A DNA stretch of 35,891 nt from a virus: the IMG/VR virus record IMGVR_UViG_3300042557_000834, positions 1 through 35,891 of that record; one strand, given 5' to 3'. A program made the position numbers and the translations under genes. The notes beneath the pieces were generated by a model that saw nothing but the letters and a program-made list of their open reading frames with translations, had not been told where the DNA came from and did not search any database. Shown in pieces: positions 9,337-24,122 of this stretch (positions within the stretch are counted from its first letter, which is position 1; every line of letters begins with the position of its first letter).

Positions 9337-11451
9337 CTAGATTCCCAATGTTGCAAGGAACTTCTTCCTTGATTTCCTGAGATTATTCAGACGCGAGTTG
9401 TAAAGCCGTTCAAGCGTGTTCAACCAAGTTTGTTCTTCCTTGGTGAATCGTCCGTCTGCCGAGATCTTTGAAATATATTCGCCCCACTTAAATTTTTGTG
9501 CTCGCTCAATCAGATCATCTGCAATTGATGTTAATTGCCTGCGCTGCTGAGGTGATAAGTTTGCAAAATAGTTAGCGTACGGTTGACCGCCATATTCTTT
9601 TGTCAACCCAGCAACATCCAAACCAAATCGTTTTTGAATATCTTCTTTTGACAAACCAGCCAAAGCAGAGAGTTCGTTGCCTGTCGGGATCAACATCGTT
9701 CCACCCTTTGGGTTTCTCTGAATTGAATCAGCAGAGCGAGATGTCCTATCCGACAGGTAATCAGAGAATGCGATTCGCAAAGCGTCCGCATTGTCTGGTT
9801 TGTTTCCAGTTCCGCGAGGAGTGATGTTACCCACATCTTCAACAAAAGCAGTTCGCTTTCCAGATGTTCCAACAACGCGAACCGTCTGTGCGTCAAGACC
9901 TAATTGCGAAGCAATGTCTGAATAAACACGGCGAGCGATTGCTCCATTCGCACGGGTTTCAGGGATTGCGTAGTAGGACTTGTCGCCCATAGTCCACTTG
10001 GTGGCACCATTTGCTCTTGATGATGTGTATTTAGATTTCTTAAGAGCGGCAAGCAAGTAGTCGGCTTCAATGTCAAATGGATCTGAACCTTTGTCAAGCA
10101 GTTTGACTGCATCAAGTAGCGAAGAAGACTGAACAGCGCCCTCTGTTGTATCTGCGCGAACAGTCTCTGGCGTTTCAACAACTGGCTTTTCGCGGTTCTT
10201 CTTAACGAATGTCTCATAAACCCAACGACGGATCTGACGCTTCTTTCCGTCGCTTCCTGTAATCTCAACAAGATCCAAAGGCTTATTAATTTGTGGGAAT
10301 GATTCGGTGTACTTAAAAGCACCCTCTGAATTGTTAGCGAAATCACGGATATTGTTTCCAACATCGTATTCATCGCTCGTTCCTACAGCCCTATTGAGCA
10401 TGCGACCAAACTTGCGTCGCTCTCCAACGGTTAGCGGTCGTGCGCGTTCAACGGTTAACAGTGTTCCGTTTGGCGCAACAAATGAAATGCGGCTCATTGA
10501 CGGACCAGAAAGAAGCGCTAGGTCATCTGATGAAATATCCTGTGGTCGCTGGATCGCACGGATCATTACTCCGTCTTCCATGTCTGGGTTATCACTGAAT
10601 GAACGCAAAACAGATGATGGAACGATTGGTCGTAGTGTCACACCGTCACGACGAATCATGCGACCCTCACCTGCTGGAGCACCCTTAAGAATCGTGATTG
10701 CCTCATCCATCCCAGCCTTCAAAGCATCTTCACGCAGCGATCCAGTTCGTGGGATTTGTGCCATTCGCTGAATCTGAATAGTACGCGCACCAGTTGGTTG
10801 ACCTTGGACTACTTCGGAAAGATTCTCAACTCGCGCCGTTGGAGTATTCATGCCTGCTCTAATTGCGCGTGCAAGAAGCGCAAGAGGACCAGGTATTTCA
10901 AACAACTGAGCACCGCAGTTTGAGAACTCGTTGTCAGCAAAGCGACCACCAAATTCAAATCCAGCAGGGCATCTTGCTTGTTCGTTGCGTGGCTTTAAAC
11001 GCATACGACCACCGCCAGGAACTAGCGCACCATATAAACCAGAACGAATTGGGCTTGTAATTGAACTTGAGTTTCCTGGAGTCACATAGGATCCAATGCC
11101 TTGCGCAACTCTCCCAAGTCTTCCGCTAGAGCCGACCAAGCCGACCTTTTCATTGATCTCGTTGATTTGGCTGAAAGGATTGATTCGCAGGACAGACTTG
11201 CCCAAGCGCTCTCGTTTTACCCTCAAATAAAGGTGAGCCTTTGCGTTGAGTAGGTTACGGTTTCCATTTAGTGGTTGATTGCGAACCTCAGAAGCACTAA
11301 GAACAATTTTTCGGCTTTTACTGGTTTGAGTTTTTAATGTTATTTCTTTGCCAATTGGAATGATTGTCCGCTTTATGGATTGGTTATTCCGCACCACTGA
11401 TCGCATGTGGCGTAGGAAATAATCAATTGTTGGGTTCTGGTAGTTGCCCAT
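9337..11451 (-). CDS. Modular C-x17-C protein with degenerate kinase-like domain (pseudokinase)
   Basis: 704 residues from ATG 11451; an in-frame TTG at 11481 would add ten. Neither start has a clear ribosome-binding site. The N-terminal 150 residues are basic. Next is the shared motif CPAG...FADNEFSNC (C161, C179; C-x17-C). A middle domain of unknown type follows. The C-terminal part aligns with the kinase-like domains of its neighbours: lead-in 'DPFDIEADYLLAALK', then SYYAIPE where a paralogue has YYMKK, then SDRTSRS (D568) where active copies have DRHxxN, and IPTGN (T590) where they have IDHG. The D568 to T590 spacing of 22 matches two of the three active copies (21 in the third). It has therefore lost Lys, His, Asn and the metal Asp, and is probably a pseudokinase. 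A scaffold or regulator role is inference. Confidence 0.82.
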   Translation of the reverse strand: MGNYQNPTIDYFLRHMRSVVRNNQSIKRTIIPIGKEITLKTQTSKSRKIVLSASEVRNQPLNGNRNLLNAKAHLYLRVKRERLGKSVLRINPFSQINEINEKVGLVGSSGRLGRVAQGIGSYVTPGNSSSITSPIRSGLYGALVPGGGRMRLKPRNEQARCPAGFEFGGRFADNEFSNCGAQLFEIPGPLALLARAIRAGMNTPTARVENLSEVVQGQPTGARTIQIQRMAQIPRTGSLREDALKAGMDEAITILKGAPAGEGRMIRRDGVTLRPIVPSSVLRSFSDNPDMEDGVMIRAIQRPQDISSDDLALLSGPSMSRISFVAPNGTLLTVERARPLTVGERRKFGRMLNRAVGTSDEYDVGNNIRDFANNSEGAFKYTESFPQINKPLDLVEITGSDGKKRQIRRWVYETFVKKNREKPVVETPETVRADTTEGAVQSSSLLDAVKLLDKGSDPFDIEADYLLAALKKSKYTSSRANGATKWTMGDKSYYAIPETRANGAIARRVYSDIASQLGLDAQTVRVVGTSGKRTAFVEDVGNITPRGTGNKPDNADALRIAFSDYLSDRTSRSADSIQRNPKGGTMLIPTGNELSALAGLSKEDIQKRFGLDVAGLTKEYGGQPYANYFANLSPQQRRQLTSIADDLIERAQKFKWGEYISKISADGRFTKEEQTWLNTLERLYNSRLNNLRKSRKKFLATLGI
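9354..9371 (-). other. Small hairpin at the gene junction
   Basis: CAAGGAA and TTCCTTG form a perfect 7-bp stem with a 4-base loop, inside the last codons of the pseudokinase gene and about 20 bases before ATG 9335. It hides an AGGAA ribosome-binding-like sequence. It may tune coupled translation of the following gene, or be chance within coding sequence. Confidence 0.3.
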
Positions 11452-11493
11452 ATCCTGCGCTTTGCGGTCGTTTTGGTTCAACTAGTATTGTAC

Positions 11494-17076: not shown

Positions 17077-20000
17077 TTAAGCATTTTCAATAACATCAAT
17101 AACAGATGTCAATGCCTCAATTGCATCATCGTGGTGGTAACCGAGATCGTAGAGTTCTACTCCATCTTCATTGGCAAGTGCTTCAATGCCGTAGTAGTCA
17201 AGAACAGGGTCAAGAAGCGACTTAATTTCGTAGACCGACATATAGTCAGACTGAACTACGAAAAGACCGTCTTTTTGCTCTTGTTCCATGCCACCAGAGT
17301 TAATGACCTCTTCAAGCATTCTGTATGCATCACGCAATTTGTTCATATTTCGGGTGCTGAGAACTCGTCCAGCCTTAACCTCAATATCTTCATCAAGTTG
17401 CTTCATCATTCCAGAAAGAGCAGAAACGATTGAAGCGATCATTGCATTATGACCTTCACCGCCTCCACCACAACCGCAGTCATCTTTGTCGCCACGGGTG
17501 AATGGCTTTTCAACGACTTCATCGTCATCATCTTCGCCTTCCATGACCCAGTTATCGTCGCCAGTCATGTAAGAGACGAATTCTGGCTCGTCATCCATAA
17601 ACTTACGGAGTGCCATGTAAGCCATTTCATTGGCTTTTTCTTCGTCATCAGTCTCAAAGTCTGGCTCTGATTGGTTCTCTGACTCAAGACGCTCGGCGAA
17701 CTGCTCCATCATCTGCATGTTCTTCTCGTCATCACCAGTGTCTGCAAGCAGATACTTGAGTTCATCAGCCGAAAGGGTCAAGAGTGATTTGCCGTCTCCG
17801 AGTCGTGCAAGACGCTCATTCCACTGCGAATCGCTCCAGACTGAACCGTCTCTAATGCCCTTGAGTTTCTTGCGACAGTTCTTCATGCCTGGGTGGTGGC
17901 AACCTTCGTTCGGCCAGAGACCAGTTGTTTCGTGATGTAGCCAAGCGCAAATATTGCTCAATGGATAAAGTTCTGGATGGTTGGCGAGGATTACTCGGCA
18001 ACGACGGAATCCGCCTGGCTTCTTCATGATTGGACGCCAGTAGCGGAGAAGTTTCTCAAGGTTGCCACGGCGAGGACCGTATCCACGGGTCTGTGCTGTA
18101 ATAATTTCTTGAGGAATAATCCCGCCCAGTGGGTCAGCCTTTTCTGGCGACTTTGGCTTTACGCCGAAAGGAATTTGTGGATCTTCATCCATTCCGTAGC
18201 GATCTTCGTAACGGCGTTCAGCATCAGAACCACTTGGGACATTGTCGTTGTTCATGTTCAAATAAACCGTTTGTGGCTTAACCCTTGTTGGGTCACCAAA
18301 CATGAATTCGCCATTCTCAAAATGATAAGAAACACGCAATGTCATCTGACCCTTTTCACCACGGTGATCAAATACAACGCTATTAGCGTCTGACTCACGA
18401 ACACGGACAGCACCACCAAAGCGCTTTGAAAGAGCGTAAGGGAGATTTGCCTGACGACCCATCTTTGGGTTCCGCGCTTGCACGCCATCATCTTCGCCAT
18501 ATCCTTCGCCTTTTTTCCGTAAAGCGTTAGAGGTCGGTGGTTGGCTTGCTCGTCGGAGTCTTGCAGTATTTTGCGCAAGAATTCGTTCACGGGCTACTTG
18601 ACCCGCTGAACGGTCAACGCTGTCAGGGCGACGACGATCATTTGCACCTGTTCTTGTGTCAGGACCATATGACTGAAGCGTGCCATCACGCTGTTCTCTT
18701 AGGTATTCACTATCCTTTGGCGGTCGTCCAGCGCGATCCTGCAACCGCCCGTCAGCGCCTTCTGTAATGTATCCAGGCTTGTATTCAGTCCGACTAGCCC
18801 TATCAGCCGAATCGGGTTTTCTATTTGGGGCTGAACGGTCTGTTCTGTCAGCACCCCTACGGTCATCTGCACCAGTTGGTCGTGTGTCACGGCGTCCAAC
18901 TCCTGCACGGACTGGTTGATCTCCGCCCGTTGAAGGAATTGGGCGACCAACTTGTCCTACACCTGCGCGTACTGGCTGATCCCCACCAGTTGATTGACGG
19001 TCAGGGCGAGTTCCAACACCTGCGCGTACTGGCTGGTCACCACCTGTTGAGTTACCTACACCACGGTTCGCTTGAACTCGTTGTGCGGAATCGCCCATTC
19101 GGTTCGGTGCCGAACGGTCTGTTCTGTCAGCACCCCTACGGTCATCTGCGCTCGTTGGTCTGCGTGAATCAGTCTGTCCACGGCGAGTAGCAGCGTCTGT
19201 TGCCTGTGGTGTTCCGCGATTAGCAGCGACTCGTTCTGCTGAGTCAATTCGTCGTGCTGGTGGTGAATTGTCAATACGATCTGCTGGCTTGCGATCAGCG
19301 GCAGATGATCGTGCGGCTTGACCAGCAAGACGGTCGGATTGTGCTTGGTTACGGCGTGCGCGTGTTGCATCAGTATTCGCACGACCGATTTCAGCCTGTG
19401 CTTGTGCTCCACGACCAACTGTCTGCTTGTCAAATGCGGCACGGGCACGGGCGCGTGCATTGCGTTCTGCTTCAGAGCGGTCTTCCACTCGGGCGTTTGG
19501 TTTGATTCCTTGTGCGCGAAGTTGACCACGAACAAAGCGACGACGCTCTTGCTCGTATTTTCCGCCAGCAGCACTTTGACGCTTATATGGAACTCGTTGC
19601 TCCTGTGGGGTGCCGTCAAAGATCATTCCGTCACCGTCACTGTCAACGGCGTCCATTGAACCTTGCGCAGTTGCGCCTGGTGCTCCAGTGCGTTGACCAA
19701 CAGTTCCTGCTTGCTGACCAACAGTTGCTTTTGTTCCCATTTCGTCCGCCTTGATTGAAATTGTTCCAGTCAACTGGTTTGCACCATGGAGAACTGGAGA
19801 TACTTCGTAAAGTTCAACTGACTTCAAGATGTTTGCTTGGCGCTGTGGATCAAAGTCGGCATCAAGTGTCTTGTAGCCGATTGACCACTCTTGCTCTTCG
19901 CCAAAGAACGAAACATCAGCGAAAGCCTGACGACCACGCTCTGATTTCAAGTTGAACTGAACGCGTGCATAGACACCGCCAATTCCAGCACGCTTCATCT

Positions 20001-20265
20001 TCATTGGAAGGCGTGGGTCAGATGCTGGGACTTCATAAATCTCAAGAACTTTGCCGATTGGCTCATTCCAGTTGTGACCCCAGACAACGCGTGGCTTGCG
20101 ACGCTTTAGGCTTTCATTAAATGCGCCAGATACGATGATGTCACCAACGGAGTCCTTGTTGCCAATACCTGCAACAAAAGCCTCAACAATTCCAAGCGCT
20201 TCGTCAATGGTTACTTGACCTTGTAGCGCCTTATATTCTTGTGCGTCATCATATTGTGTTGGCAT
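17077..20265 (-). CDS. Prohead protease (HK97/U35-like) fused to long disordered repeats and a scaffold-like C terminus
   Basis: 1062 residues, several times a normal prohead protease. Residues 1-175 are the protease: GHNWNEPIGK (H64), EEQEWSIGY (S128) and LYEVSPVLHGAN (E154), the expected His/Ser/acid arrangement. Residues 208-217 form a DSDGDG calcium-loop-like motif. About 220-590 is Arg/Ala/Asp/Gly-rich disorder with repeats of STGGDQPVRAGVG and DDRRGADRTDRSAPN. A folded region follows with CAWLHHETTGLWPNEGCHHP plus a further Cys (possible metal site), then acidic stretches and DDCGCGGG. The end has a KAGRVLSTRNMNKLRDAYRMLEEV helix typical of scaffold domains of capsid proteases. ATG 20265 has AAGGAG. 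It processes and assembles the prohead, and may trim packaged proteins (inference). Confidence 0.88.
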   Translation of the reverse strand: MPTQYDDAQEYKALQGQVTIDEALGIVEAFVAGIGNKDSVGDIIVSGAFNESLKRRKPRVVWGHNWNEPIGKVLEIYEVPASDPRLPMKMKRAGIGGVYARVQFNLKSERGRQAFADVSFFGEEQEWSIGYKTLDADFDPQRQANILKSVELYEVSPVLHGANQLTGTISIKADEMGTKATVGQQAGTVGQRTGAPGATAQGSMDAVDSDGDGMIFDGTPQEQRVPYKRQSAAGGKYEQERRRFVRGQLRAQGIKPNARVEDRSEAERNARARARAAFDKQTVGRGAQAQAEIGRANTDATRARRNQAQSDRLAGQAARSSAADRKPADRIDNSPPARRIDSAERVAANRGTPQATDAATRRGQTDSRRPTSADDRRGADRTDRSAPNRMGDSAQRVQANRGVGNSTGGDQPVRAGVGTRPDRQSTGGDQPVRAGVGQVGRPIPSTGGDQPVRAGVGRRDTRPTGADDRRGADRTDRSAPNRKPDSADRASRTEYKPGYITEGADGRLQDRAGRPPKDSEYLREQRDGTLQSYGPDTRTGANDRRRPDSVDRSAGQVARERILAQNTARLRRASQPPTSNALRKKGEGYGEDDGVQARNPKMGRQANLPYALSKRFGGAVRVRESDANSVVFDHRGEKGQMTLRVSYHFENGEFMFGDPTRVKPQTVYLNMNNDNVPSGSDAERRYEDRYGMDEDPQIPFGVKPKSPEKADPLGGIIPQEIITAQTRGYGPRRGNLEKLLRYWRPIMKKPGGFRRCRVILANHPELYPLSNICAWLHHETTGLWPNEGCHHPGMKNCRKKLKGIRDGSVWSDSQWNERLARLGDGKSLLTLSADELKYLLADTGDDEKNMQMMEQFAERLESENQSEPDFETDDEEKANEMAYMALRKFMDDEPEFVSYMTGDDNWVMEGEDDDDEVVEKPFTRGDKDDCGCGGGGEGHNAMIASIVSALSGMMKQLDEDIEVKAGRVLSTRNMNKLRDAYRMLEEVINSGGMEQEQKDGLFVVQSDYMSVYEIKSLLDPVLDYYGIEALANEDGVELYDLGYHHDDAIEALTSVIDVIENA
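18833..18870 (-). repeat. 38-bp direct repeat, copy 1
   Basis: Identical to 19112-19149. It encodes the ADDRRGADRTDRSA repeat in the disordered region of the prohead protease gene. Nearby at about 18900-19060 are three less perfect DNA copies of the STGGDQPVRAGVG repeat. Confidence 0.85.
19112..19149 (-). repeat. 38-bp direct repeat, copy 2
   Basis: Exact copy of 18833-18870, 279 bases apart (a multiple of three, so recombination between copies keeps the frame). Both encode the same Arg/Asp-rich repeat in the protease linker. Confidence 0.85.
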
Positions 20266-20353: not shown

Positions 20354-22567
20354 TCAATCAAACCTAAACCTCAGACGACAGCGACAATTAAATGTCAGTG
20401 CTGGTGGCGCGAGTGGGTCGCCAGGAAACCTGAGTGCAATGCCATCAACCATGAATCCGTCGCCAAAATCAACAGTCTTTCCCTCAAGGAATTTGTGCGT
20501 GTTTCGTACTCGCGAGTCTTTTCTGGTCAACCATGTCTTAGTTACTCCAGCGTCAAGGCTCTTGCCTGCCATGAATACTCCTGCGTTGTATGAAGTTTGC
20601 GCTTCATGTTCAGCCATTGCACGGCGTCGTTTGGAAAGAAGGTTTACGAAAATTGCGATCAAAGCAGCCCGTAGAAGGAGTGACTTTTCTTCTTCTTCGC
20701 CAACCGCAAGGGCAACGAGCACAGCGGCAGATATTTCCTCAAGGGTTGATTGGTTTGCTTGTTGCATGCGAGCCAACTGCTCTGCGGCAAACTTCTGCAT
20801 TTCTTCCTCGTCTATTTGGGCAGGAAGACTTGAGCGAGATGAAACATATTCCTTAGCCTCGGTGTAAATGGAGGTAATAATTGGGGTTAGGTCGTCTGCT
20901 AGTTGCTTATCCCAAATCTCTTTATCAAAGATCATTTCGGCGGTAAGTATTCCAGACGAAAGAGCCTTCATCCCTCGTTTGCCAAAAGCCTTCTCTAGAA
21001 CAACTCGTTGCTGTCTCTCAAAGACTCTTTCTAGTGCACGATCCATTATTTCTGTCCACCTATCGGTGTCAGAGTCCGCTTTTGTCTCAACTTCTTCTAA
21101 AAACTTGCGTTGCATTTGATGTTGGATTTCCTCAAATGCTGAAAGTTGCTGGTCTGGAGTCATCGCTCCAGTTTGCGGAGATGTTGCTTCTGGAACTTCA
21201 ATTGGTGTTGGTGGTGCTGGCTGTGGCATTTCGGGAGCGCCAGGAACTGGAGGTAATCCACCAGGAACTGCGTTCGGATCTGCTGGAGCACTTTGATCAA
21301 CACCTGCCATATCAACGGGCATTTGTTCTTCAGGCTTGAATGGCTTTTCGGTGTTAGCGATTGGCGTGAGGTTTGGATTAGAGAGAAGCGAGTCAGCAAG
21401 TTCTGATTCAACTTTCTTTCTTCCAGACGCTGTTCGGTATTCATTCAAACTAATCAGACCCTGTTGGAATTCGTCCATCACATAGCGTTCACGCTCTTGC
21501 TTGGCAAGAATAAGAATTGGAATGTCGTTGGTATCAAAGTCAACATAATACTTATCGTCAAGTTCATCAAAAGCGCGAGCAAGAGTATGTAAGTGAGGAG
21601 CCATTGTCTCCATCCAAAAAACTCTGATCTCTTCGCTTGCGTTACTGAAAGTTCTTCCAGAAGCATTACCAATTACCGACTCTGGAACACCAAACGCTGC
21701 GAATATTTCATTCTTCTGAATCTCTCGCATTTGCACATAAGCGGCATCGCGAGGTGATGCAGATGTATCAACATAATCAACGCCATCGCTTGACGCAATA
21801 ACTGTTGTAGATCCAGCACGCGAAAGATTTCCACGGAACCTGCTCTTTAACTCTTGCTTGTCATCATCTTCCATTTCACCACGGACTACTAGTAATCCGC
21901 CTGGGCGACCATCGTTGAGAAGGTAGTTTCGGTTATAAATCTTTGCAAGGTTTTCTAATTCAATTGCAATTCCTGCTGATTCCATTGGCGTCATTGAAAG
22001 GTATGGATCAAGCGGGTGTGGTCGGCGAATCCAGCAAACATCATCTGGCTTAAGCGTGAACTTTGTTCCGTTACGCATATCTACTTCGTATCCCGAAATA
22101 AATTTCTTCGGATCTGGGATTGGCGCAGTGTGTTGCGGTGGGAGAATTTGAAGAGCGATTATGCTTCCGTCACGACCTCGCACTTTTTCAATAAAGACAC
22201 CACGGGTGCTCATTAAGAGTTGAGCAGAAACCCTGTATCTAAAAGCAAAAGAGTTTTCGCCATCGTTTGATTTAGAGTTAAAAATCTCAAGTAGTGGTTT
22301 ATTTGCCTTGGTTAGTTCTCCACGCTGATCGTTGTCTTTACGGAGAATAACTGGAAGGCGTGCTTGGTTTCCTGCGATTGCATCTATGCAACGGAATACC
22401 CAAGTAACTCTTTGCATTCCCTCGCGGTATGCACGCTCAATGTCCCAGCCATCTTTGTATGGTTTTCCTGCGCGTGCCGCGTCAAAAGCAACTGGGGCGC
22501 CTGGGTTTGACATGGCTTTTTCTGAGCCATTCTGCAAACTTTTATTTGAACCGCTATTCCACGCCAT
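20354..22567 (-). CDS. Portal protein fused to MuF-type head morphogenesis domain
   Basis: 737 residues. Residues about 40-410 match the HK97-type portal pattern (GWDIERAYREGMQRVTWVFR, PPQHTAPIPD, PHPLDPYLSMTPMESA, FGVPESVIGNA, GLISLNEYR). This dodecameric ring at the capsid vertex passes DNA during packaging. A Pro-rich linker (about 415-480) and a helical region follow. The last 65 residues are MuF-like: TWLTRKDSRVRNTHKFLEGKT, PGDP and NCRC at the end. MuF is usually a separate gene product, so this is a fusion. ATG 22567 overlaps the stop of the upstream small membrane protein by one base (TAATG). TerL is divergently transcribed on the other side of that small gene. Confidence 0.92.
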   Translation of the reverse strand: MAWNSGSNKSLQNGSEKAMSNPGAPVAFDAARAGKPYKDGWDIERAYREGMQRVTWVFRCIDAIAGNQARLPVILRKDNDQRGELTKANKPLLEIFNSKSNDGENSFAFRYRVSAQLLMSTRGVFIEKVRGRDGSIIALQILPPQHTAPIPDPKKFISGYEVDMRNGTKFTLKPDDVCWIRRPHPLDPYLSMTPMESAGIAIELENLAKIYNRNYLLNDGRPGGLLVVRGEMEDDDKQELKSRFRGNLSRAGSTTVIASSDGVDYVDTSASPRDAAYVQMREIQKNEIFAAFGVPESVIGNASGRTFSNASEEIRVFWMETMAPHLHTLARAFDELDDKYYVDFDTNDIPILILAKQERERYVMDEFQQGLISLNEYRTASGRKKVESELADSLLSNPNLTPIANTEKPFKPEEQMPVDMAGVDQSAPADPNAVPGGLPPVPGAPEMPQPAPPTPIEVPEATSPQTGAMTPDQQLSAFEEIQHQMQRKFLEEVETKADSDTDRWTEIMDRALERVFERQQRVVLEKAFGKRGMKALSSGILTAEMIFDKEIWDKQLADDLTPIITSIYTEAKEYVSSRSSLPAQIDEEEMQKFAAEQLARMQQANQSTLEEISAAVLVALAVGEEEEKSLLLRAALIAIFVNLLSKRRRAMAEHEAQTSYNAGVFMAGKSLDAGVTKTWLTRKDSRVRNTHKFLEGKTVDFGDGFMVDGIALRFPGDPLAPPALTFNCRCRLRFRFD

Positions 22568-22743: not shown

Positions 22744-22783
22744 TCAGACCATCACCTTAGCAAATGAGAGACCTAATAAATAC

Positions 22784-22794
22784 TACATTATGTA
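22784..22794. promoter_or_regulatory. Palindrome in the divergent promoter region
   Basis: TACAT-T-ATGTA, perfect 5-base arms, in the 74 bases between the leftward membrane-protein start (22743) and the rightward TerL start (22818). On the minus strand it contains CATAAT, a -10-like box. Both gene blocks must start near here, so an operator or overlapping divergent promoter is plausible; no convincing -35 box is seen. Confidence 0.35.
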
Positions 22795-22817
22795 TGTACC
22801 TATTTTTGCGGAGACAC

Positions 22818-24122
22818 ATGGCTGACTGGAAACAAATTTATGATTACCTTCAACCGAAGGAACCTTTGTTTTGTCCAGAGGAACCATCCATCACTCAAAA
22901 AGTCTTTTTGAGATCATACGCTATTGAAGGACTCTTCGGTGGAGCAGCGGGTGGAGGAAAATCCTCCGCTTTGCTTATGTCCGCATTGCAGTATGTGGAT
23001 GTACCTAATTACTCAGCAATTCTGTTCCGCCGTACCTACGCTGACTTAGCCCTACCTGGTGCTTTGATGGACCGTTTTCGTAGTTGGATATCTAATTATG
23101 ATGATGTCCACTGGAACGCTAATAGTTATGTGGCTACATTTCCATCTGGCGCTCGTATTTCGTTTGGTTATTTAAATAACACAAATGACTATTTACGATA
23201 TAAAGGTTCTGAATTTCAATTCATTGGGATGGACGAGGTCACAGAAATCAGGGAAAGTGACTACCGATATATGTTCTCCCGTTTGCGCAGACCAGCAAGC
23301 GGACCTTTGTCAAAAGTCCCTTTGAGGATGAGATCAGCATCAAACCCAGCACCCAATTGGGTTCGGCAACGATTTATCGTTGAGGGCAAGCAGGAGAGCC
23401 GAGTTTTCGTACCGTCCTTTTTGACGGATAACCCAGGAATTGATGCAGAATCCTACCGACAGGCTCTTTCCGCGCTTGACCCGATTGAGCGTAGGCGCTT
23501 GGAAATGGGTGACTGGTGGGCAACCACTTTGGGCACATTATTTGACAGAACCGACTTTGTGATCATTGACCCGACCGATGTTCCTCAAATAACCAGTTCA
23601 GCCCGAGCCGTAAGGTTTTGGGACTTAGCGGCGACCGAGCCTCATTCTGGAAACTTGAACCCCGACTGGACGGTTGGGACGCTGATGCTTTTTGATCAGG
23701 GAATTGCCTATGTAATGGATGTCCGAAAGATTAGGGCTAAGTCGGACAAGGTTGAAGCCTTCATTTCCCAAACCGCCATGGAAGACGGCAAGGGTGTGGC
23801 GATACGAATGGAGCAAGAGCCAGGATCGTCGGGTAAGGCATTGATTGACCAGTACGCGAGGTATGTGGTTCCTGGTTGGGACTTGATGGGTATTCGTTCA
23901 ACTGGCGACAAATTAACCCGAGCCAGACCCTTCGCAGCCGCTGTAGCCAATGGCAATGTTCGCCTAGTTCGTGCGTCATGGCTCTCTGACTGGCTTGACG
24001 AATTCTCATCATTTCCTGAAGCGTGTGACCACGACGACCAAGTTGACTCTGCGGTTGGGGCTTTTACATTTTTAACTGGTTTGGGGTTGCCTCAGAGGAG
24101 TAGAGCCACTATCATCGTCTGA
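22818..24122 (+). CDS. terL: Terminase large subunit
   Basis: 434 residues from ATG 22818, chosen over ATG 22764 because GCGGAGA precedes it, the same pattern used by the tail genes here. N-terminal ATPase: Walker A GGAAGGGKSS (41-50) and Walker B FQFIGMDE (D139, E140). C-terminal RNase H-like nuclease: FWDLAATE (D269) and DHDDQVDSAVGAF (D406/D407/D410). It drives DNA packaging through the portal and cuts concatemers. No small subunit is recognised nearby. It heads the rightward block and is divergent from the portal, which is unusual since the two are normally adjacent and co-directional. Confidence 0.95.
   Translation: MADWKQIYDYLQPKEPLFCPEEPSITQKVFLRSYAIEGLFGGAAGGGKSSALLMSALQYVDVPNYSAILFRRTYADLALPGALMDRFRSWISNYDDVHWNANSYVATFPSGARISFGYLNNTNDYLRYKGSEFQFIGMDEVTEIRESDYRYMFSRLRRPASGPLSKVPLRMRSASNPAPNWVRQRFIVEGKQESRVFVPSFLTDNPGIDAESYRQALSALDPIERRRLEMGDWWATTLGTLFDRTDFVIIDPTDVPQITSSARAVRFWDLAATEPHSGNLNPDWTVGTLMLFDQGIAYVMDVRKIRAKSDKVEAFISQTAMEDGKGVAIRMEQEPGSSGKALIDQYARYVVPGWDLMGIRSTGDKLTRARPFAAAVANGNVRLVRASWLSDWLDEFSSFPEACDHDDQVDSAVGAFTFLTGLGLPQRSRATIIV

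Follow-up and report, generated by a model that had tools for sequence, protein, structure and literature searches.

Several proteins carrying the same kinase-like domain are encoded within one gene cluster of a tailed phage, and one of them lacks the residues expected of an active enzyme. The locus thus raises the question of whether this domain really descends from a kinase, how far its active site has been lost, and what it might be kept for. The window (i.e., the whole stretch of DNA analyzed here, 35,891 bases) is a virus record, IMGVR_UViG_3300042557_000834, of an uncultured tailed phage, with genes for a terminase (22764-24122), a portal-MuF fusion (20354-22567), and an S78 prohead protease fusion (17077-20265, minus strand). 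Immediately beyond the genes for portal-MuF and the prohead protease, and within the same cluster, sits the gene for the protein of interest, which we name P3 (9337-11451, 704 aa), together with those for P1 (1115-4441, 1108 aa), P2 (4884-9356, 1490 aa, with a TTG start that overlaps the end of P3), and P4 (12085-15249, 1054 aa), all four on the minus strand. The open reading frame (ORF) given for P3 in a preliminary description of this DNA, which left out the strand, is real and runs from an ATG at 11451 down to 9337; an upstream TTG at 11481 is an alternative start and would yield 714 aa. An actinobacterial host is plausible for this phage because its nearest isolates by portal sequence are actinobacterial phages (~40% identity). 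In the nearest of these, Streptomyces phage Gilgamesh, the profiles used here detected no kinase domain in residues 1-3,867 of the giant protein that follows the portal. A DxDxD...GTP stretch that resembles a calcium loop by eye occurs in the protease-fusion protein and in a neighbor on a related contig (L001, 11811-13457).

Intact kinase-like domains are found in P1 (1118-2209; K886, D973-R-H, D995-F-G), P2 (4887-5975; K1224, D1329-R-H, D1351), and P4 (13975-14832; K217, E226, D306-R-H-x-x-N311, D327), all on the minus strand, and that of P4 served as the folded comparator. The Pfam PI3_PI4_kinase profile matched P2 (1.7e-5) and P4 (1.8e-4) weakly, falling short of the curated cut-off in each case, and matched neither P1 nor P3; no kinase match to P3 was obtained from Pfam or PHROGs, and tblastn of P3, P2, and P4 against 50,697 phage records returned no match. 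Following its kinase domain, P4 also has a HEALH (HExxH) stretch such as metallopeptidases have, with no Pfam peptidase match.

P3 itself is built of two main parts. Its N-terminal carrier region (residues ~101-419; 10195-11151, minus strand) is kept in approximately 38 related ORFs with or without a kinase-like domain, and includes the motif RCPxG..(F)GGxF(T/A)D....C (residues 160-180; 10912-10974, minus strand) that is common to P1, P2, and P4. In the looser form RCPxG..(x)GGx(F/I)(T/A)D....C, this motif is seen in P1-P4 and also at 3-863 on the minus strand of the window. Across the fetched set the RCPxG...D....C motif occurs in 143 ORFs, 73 of which have a kinase-like domain, and it is possibly a shared virion or cleavage signal. 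The C-terminal part (residues 441-704; 9340-10131, minus strand) is the pseudokinase region, the first ~30 residues of which form a two-helix lead-in that also precedes the kinase domains of P1, P2, and P4.

The kinase-like domains of P1, P2, and P4, be these C-terminal or internal, have a homolog in the last ~260 residues of P3. A profile built only from the C-terminal domains of the P3 family (13 sequences) matches the intact kinases of neighboring proteins (hmmsearch, E 5e-9) over the lead-in, the N-lobe, and the catalytic loop, and hhalign, used to compare the profile of the P3 family (A5) against that of the intact kinases (A7), gave 98.7% and E 2.6e-16. AlphaFold2 modeled residues 445-704, mostly at pLDDT 85-93, in the two-lobed atypical HipA/CotH/PI4KII-like kinase fold, and VIA-align matched this model to CtkA (Z 14.5), CotH (13.2), PI4KII (13.2), and HipA (12.8); the model of the intact P4 domain matched CotH (12.7), PI4KII (11.7), and CtkA (10.8). 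Searching solved structures with the P3-family profile alone gave matches at chance level only, such that the fold comparison was needed. The atypical kinases HipA/HipT, CtkA, CotH, and PI4KII are the best fold matches of both the dead P3 domain and an intact one, although identity is only ~10-15% and they are active enzymes, and no antitoxin or lipid-kinase context was seen here. Taken together, sequence and predicted structure show that the C-terminal ~260 residues of P3 descend from a HipA/CotH/PI4KII-type kinase domain, which is intact in three neighbors.

Defining the loss depends on the alignment register, which was obtained from hhalign, a joint MAFFT alignment, HMM alignments, and an ungapped offset test, all of which agree, and additionally from the helix ends in the AlphaFold2 models. 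In the offset test, residue 571 scored +0.73 for the catalytic Asp column (all other offsets, -0.59 or worse) and residue 591 scored +0.70 for the metal Asp column (next best, 0.04); the distance from the last residue of helix alphaE to the catalytic Asp of P4 is four residues (model positions 163 to 167), as is that to S571 in P3 (567 to 571). In this register the beta3 Lys, present in all intact homologs covering the position, is I496 in P3 (9964-9966), and the alphaC Glu is G503 (9943-9945), a column occupied by Gly in 9 of 12 relatives in A5. The D-R-H-x-x-N catalytic loop is replaced by the degenerate S571-R572-S573-A-D-S576 (9724-9741), in which the catalytic Asp, His, and Asn have become Ser and only the Arg (R572) is kept, and P-x-D-(H/F)-G is replaced by P589-T-G591-N592-E593 (9673-9687, minus strand as for all of these features), with G591 at the metal Asp column and the metal-binding motif lost. 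P3 thus has none of the features that define an active kinase of this family (the beta3 Lys, alphaC Glu, DRH-x-x-N loop, and metal Asp), all of the corresponding residues but the Arg being replaced, and is a pseudokinase in the sense of a kinase fold without at least one catalytic motif. The preliminary description was correct that the ATP-binding Lys, the His, the Asn, and the metal Asp are missing, but it named residues that are out of register. D568, which it took for a retained Asp of DRH, falls where helix alphaE ends, three residues ahead of the true column; T590, which it placed at the metal Asp, is off by one; and the 22-residue spacing that it considered preserved is an accident of that register, the true distance being 20 residues in P3 compared with 21 in P4 and 22 in both P2 and P1.

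The same loss recurs among relatives of P3, which were found in viral contigs and, as one 28%-identical copy (L173), on a contig binned with a Phycisphaerae MAG. This 12,180-base contig encodes a divergent P3 with a degenerate domain, has neighbors resembling those on L001, and may be a phage or prophage fragment. In the joint alignment, the full set of DRH, Asn, and metal Asp is present in 55 of 58 kinase rows (the exceptions being L009 and L020, with E-R-D, and L172, with D-R-N) vs. none of the 13 P3 rows. The Lys and the loop His are absent from all 13, and the Glu column is mostly Gly; the loop Asp persists in seven, and the metal Asp in one (L167, within a DNG motif), so members of the family with either feature may conceivably retain weak activity. 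Replacements at several catalytic columns differ between lineages, and several of the substituted residues are conserved in their own right (S573, N592, E593, and G503, with N592 in 12 of 12 aligned sequences); it is only in this latter respect that the loss can be called "precise," as had been proposed on the basis of the misregistered residues. In a tree built without the catalytic columns, which flags L001 and L172 as long branches, the P3 domains (13 relatives) are set apart by a single branch (SH-aLRT 99). The reading frame is kept in 13 relatives, and purifying selection on the domain is strong where it could be measured, namely in one pair (L124/L130; omega 0.051, dS 0.88, relative to 0.08-0.20 for intact kinase pairs), the pairs L036/L041 and L125/L128 being saturated and too poor in changes (0.227), respectively. 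Conservation at the columns of the altered site exceeds the mean for the domain (0.74 vs. 0.54; permutation p 0.003, with related sequences treated as independent), a result that rests mainly on R572, S573, N592, and E593. The homology, the fold, the grouping in a single clade, the shared absence of the Lys, Glu, and His, and the purifying selection seen in one pair thus strongly support the identification of P3 as a pseudokinase paralog. Because at least a dozen related phages have kept this loss, the domain probably serves a non-enzymatic function and is probably not a decaying relic.

Departures from the canonical site were also observed among the kinases themselves. In L009 (5423-8514) and L020 (9992-13083), two overlapping frames take the place of a single P4-type gene: the first has an insert with a DGHHRW stretch (ParB-like by eye) and is also present in L011 (5463-7796), and the second contains a kinase remnant with G-E-R-D in place of G-D-R-H, possibly a second, independent kinase inactivation. 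An intact-kinase clade (L006, L008, L010, L015, L019, L032, and others) has IDPSLGF in place of IDHG/IDFG and thus lacks the Gly after the metal Asp, though DRH-N-D is kept.

The distribution of the domain bears on what it may do. The tree contains 24 rows with the P3 N-terminal region and no kinase-like domain; with the very divergent L103 and L172 set aside, 22 or more relatives lack it. The pseudokinase is present in the most divergent of the close relatives, a pattern that fits an old domain with later loss, in a tree whose deep forks are weak. Obligate pairing with one active paralog is not supported: kinases persist without the pseudokinase, and five contigs, which may be fragments, carry the pseudokinase but show no DRH kinase in the genes adjoining P3 (L001, L135, L167, L168, and L173). 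On L167 kinase matches occur further away, and on the 93.8-kb L001 neither kinase profile, each of limited sensitivity, matched anything but P3 on what may be a fragment.

Against this background, the rival explanations can be compared. The preliminary description named as its own null a domain unrelated to kinases whose motif spacing matched by chance. The 22-residue spacing was indeed coincidental, but the condition that it set for refutation, an alignment in which the domain proves unrelated, does not hold: the profile matches, the shared predicted fold, and the common lead-in helices refute this null and leave it a negligible probability. Its favored interpretation, an allosteric or structural partner, deserves more weight. 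P3 would here act as an activator, forming a heterodimer with P2, P4, or P1 and switching it on or positioning it in the virion, much as the pseudokinase Fam20A, a dead paralog beside live ones that lacks an essential Glu, activates Fam20C (PMC5413348). The weak sequence matches that the intact P3 paralogs obtained include Fam20-type structures (E 0.001-0.09), intact kinase genes lie on both sides of P3 in the window with the P2 start overlapping the P3 end, and the next gene encodes an intact kinase in seven of the pseudokinase rows listed. However, Fam20 proteins are secreted animal proteins, and Fam20A differs from P3 in having a proven partner and an inverted pose of bound ATP (PMC5413348). 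Moreover, domain-less relatives with visible neighbors are mostly flanked by intact kinases in the same positions, the adjoining kinases in different pseudokinase phages belong to different clades, and on the five contigs noted above, which may be fragments, no intact kinase was found next to P3. A structural or binding role may survive from the original proposal, an obligate partnership is not supported, and we regard the activator explanation as weaker than a non-catalytic binding or structural module and doubtful overall.

Two further explanations concern the pocket itself. The domain could carry out some other ATP-dependent chemistry, whether retained or newly acquired (SelO-type AMPylation being an example), or could serve as a nucleotide-binding switch, in keeping with the conserved pocket replacements (above all N592), the loop Asp in 7 of 13 relatives, and the DNG motif of L167. 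Known pseudokinase-fold catalysts generally rely on metal-binding residues, and the P3 of the window has lost such residues together with the rest of the set (Lys, Glu, loop Asp, Asn, and metal Asp), making this explanation unlikely. Alternatively, the domain might be a decaying relic that persists only through its fusion to a needed N-terminal domain, which would agree with its absence from so many related P3 proteins and with the lineage-specific replacements; the single clade, the maintained reading frame, the low omega of the measurable pair, and the above-average conservation of the altered site speak against such decay and render it very improbable.

The reading that we prefer, with moderate confidence, is that P3 is a pseudokinase-bearing tailed-phage protein in which the former kinase serves as a non-catalytic binding or structural module. 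The domain would be unable to transfer phosphate and would work as a folded module whose rebuilt former active-site cleft (RS...P[ST][GS]NEL) binds another molecule; most likely, it would attach P3 or its cargo either to a different component of the virion or, once delivered, to a protein of the host, without depending on any single active paralog. The absence of the domain from 22 or more relatives is a point against this module, which must be dispensable in some lineages. Gene position and the motif common to its neighbors suggest that P3 is located in the virion, and it is probably a head-associated, polyvalent-like phage protein. Polyvalent proteins are large multidomain proteins of phages and conjugative elements that are encoded with portal/MuF genes and are thought to be packaged in the capsid, and some have kinase domains (Iyer et al., 2017, PMC5512222). 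The setting of P3 in a portal/MuF gene cluster resembles theirs, and an inactive domain with active orthologs has already been noted there, namely the effector-type PBECR domain in MuF of phage Mu (PMC5512222). The likeness concerns the gene setting. In the kinase group of the polyvalent proteins, the C-terminal subdomain is gone and the active site is retained (PMC5512222), whereas P3 is a dead copy of the two-lobed HipA/CotH/PI4KII type.

A search of an open-access library for papers treating pseudokinases, bacteriophages, and virions together yielded none on phage pseudokinases. Pseudokinases are well studied in animals. More tentatively, a virion protein of tailed phages might house a pseudokinase that is dedicated and conserved, with the rebuilt cleft as a new ligand- or partner-binding site that could, for example, hold a host kinase target or a capsid component. 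A phage lineage with one dead and several live copies of one fold per gene cluster, together with natural absences of the dead copy, lends itself to comparative study of the purpose that a pseudokinase serves.
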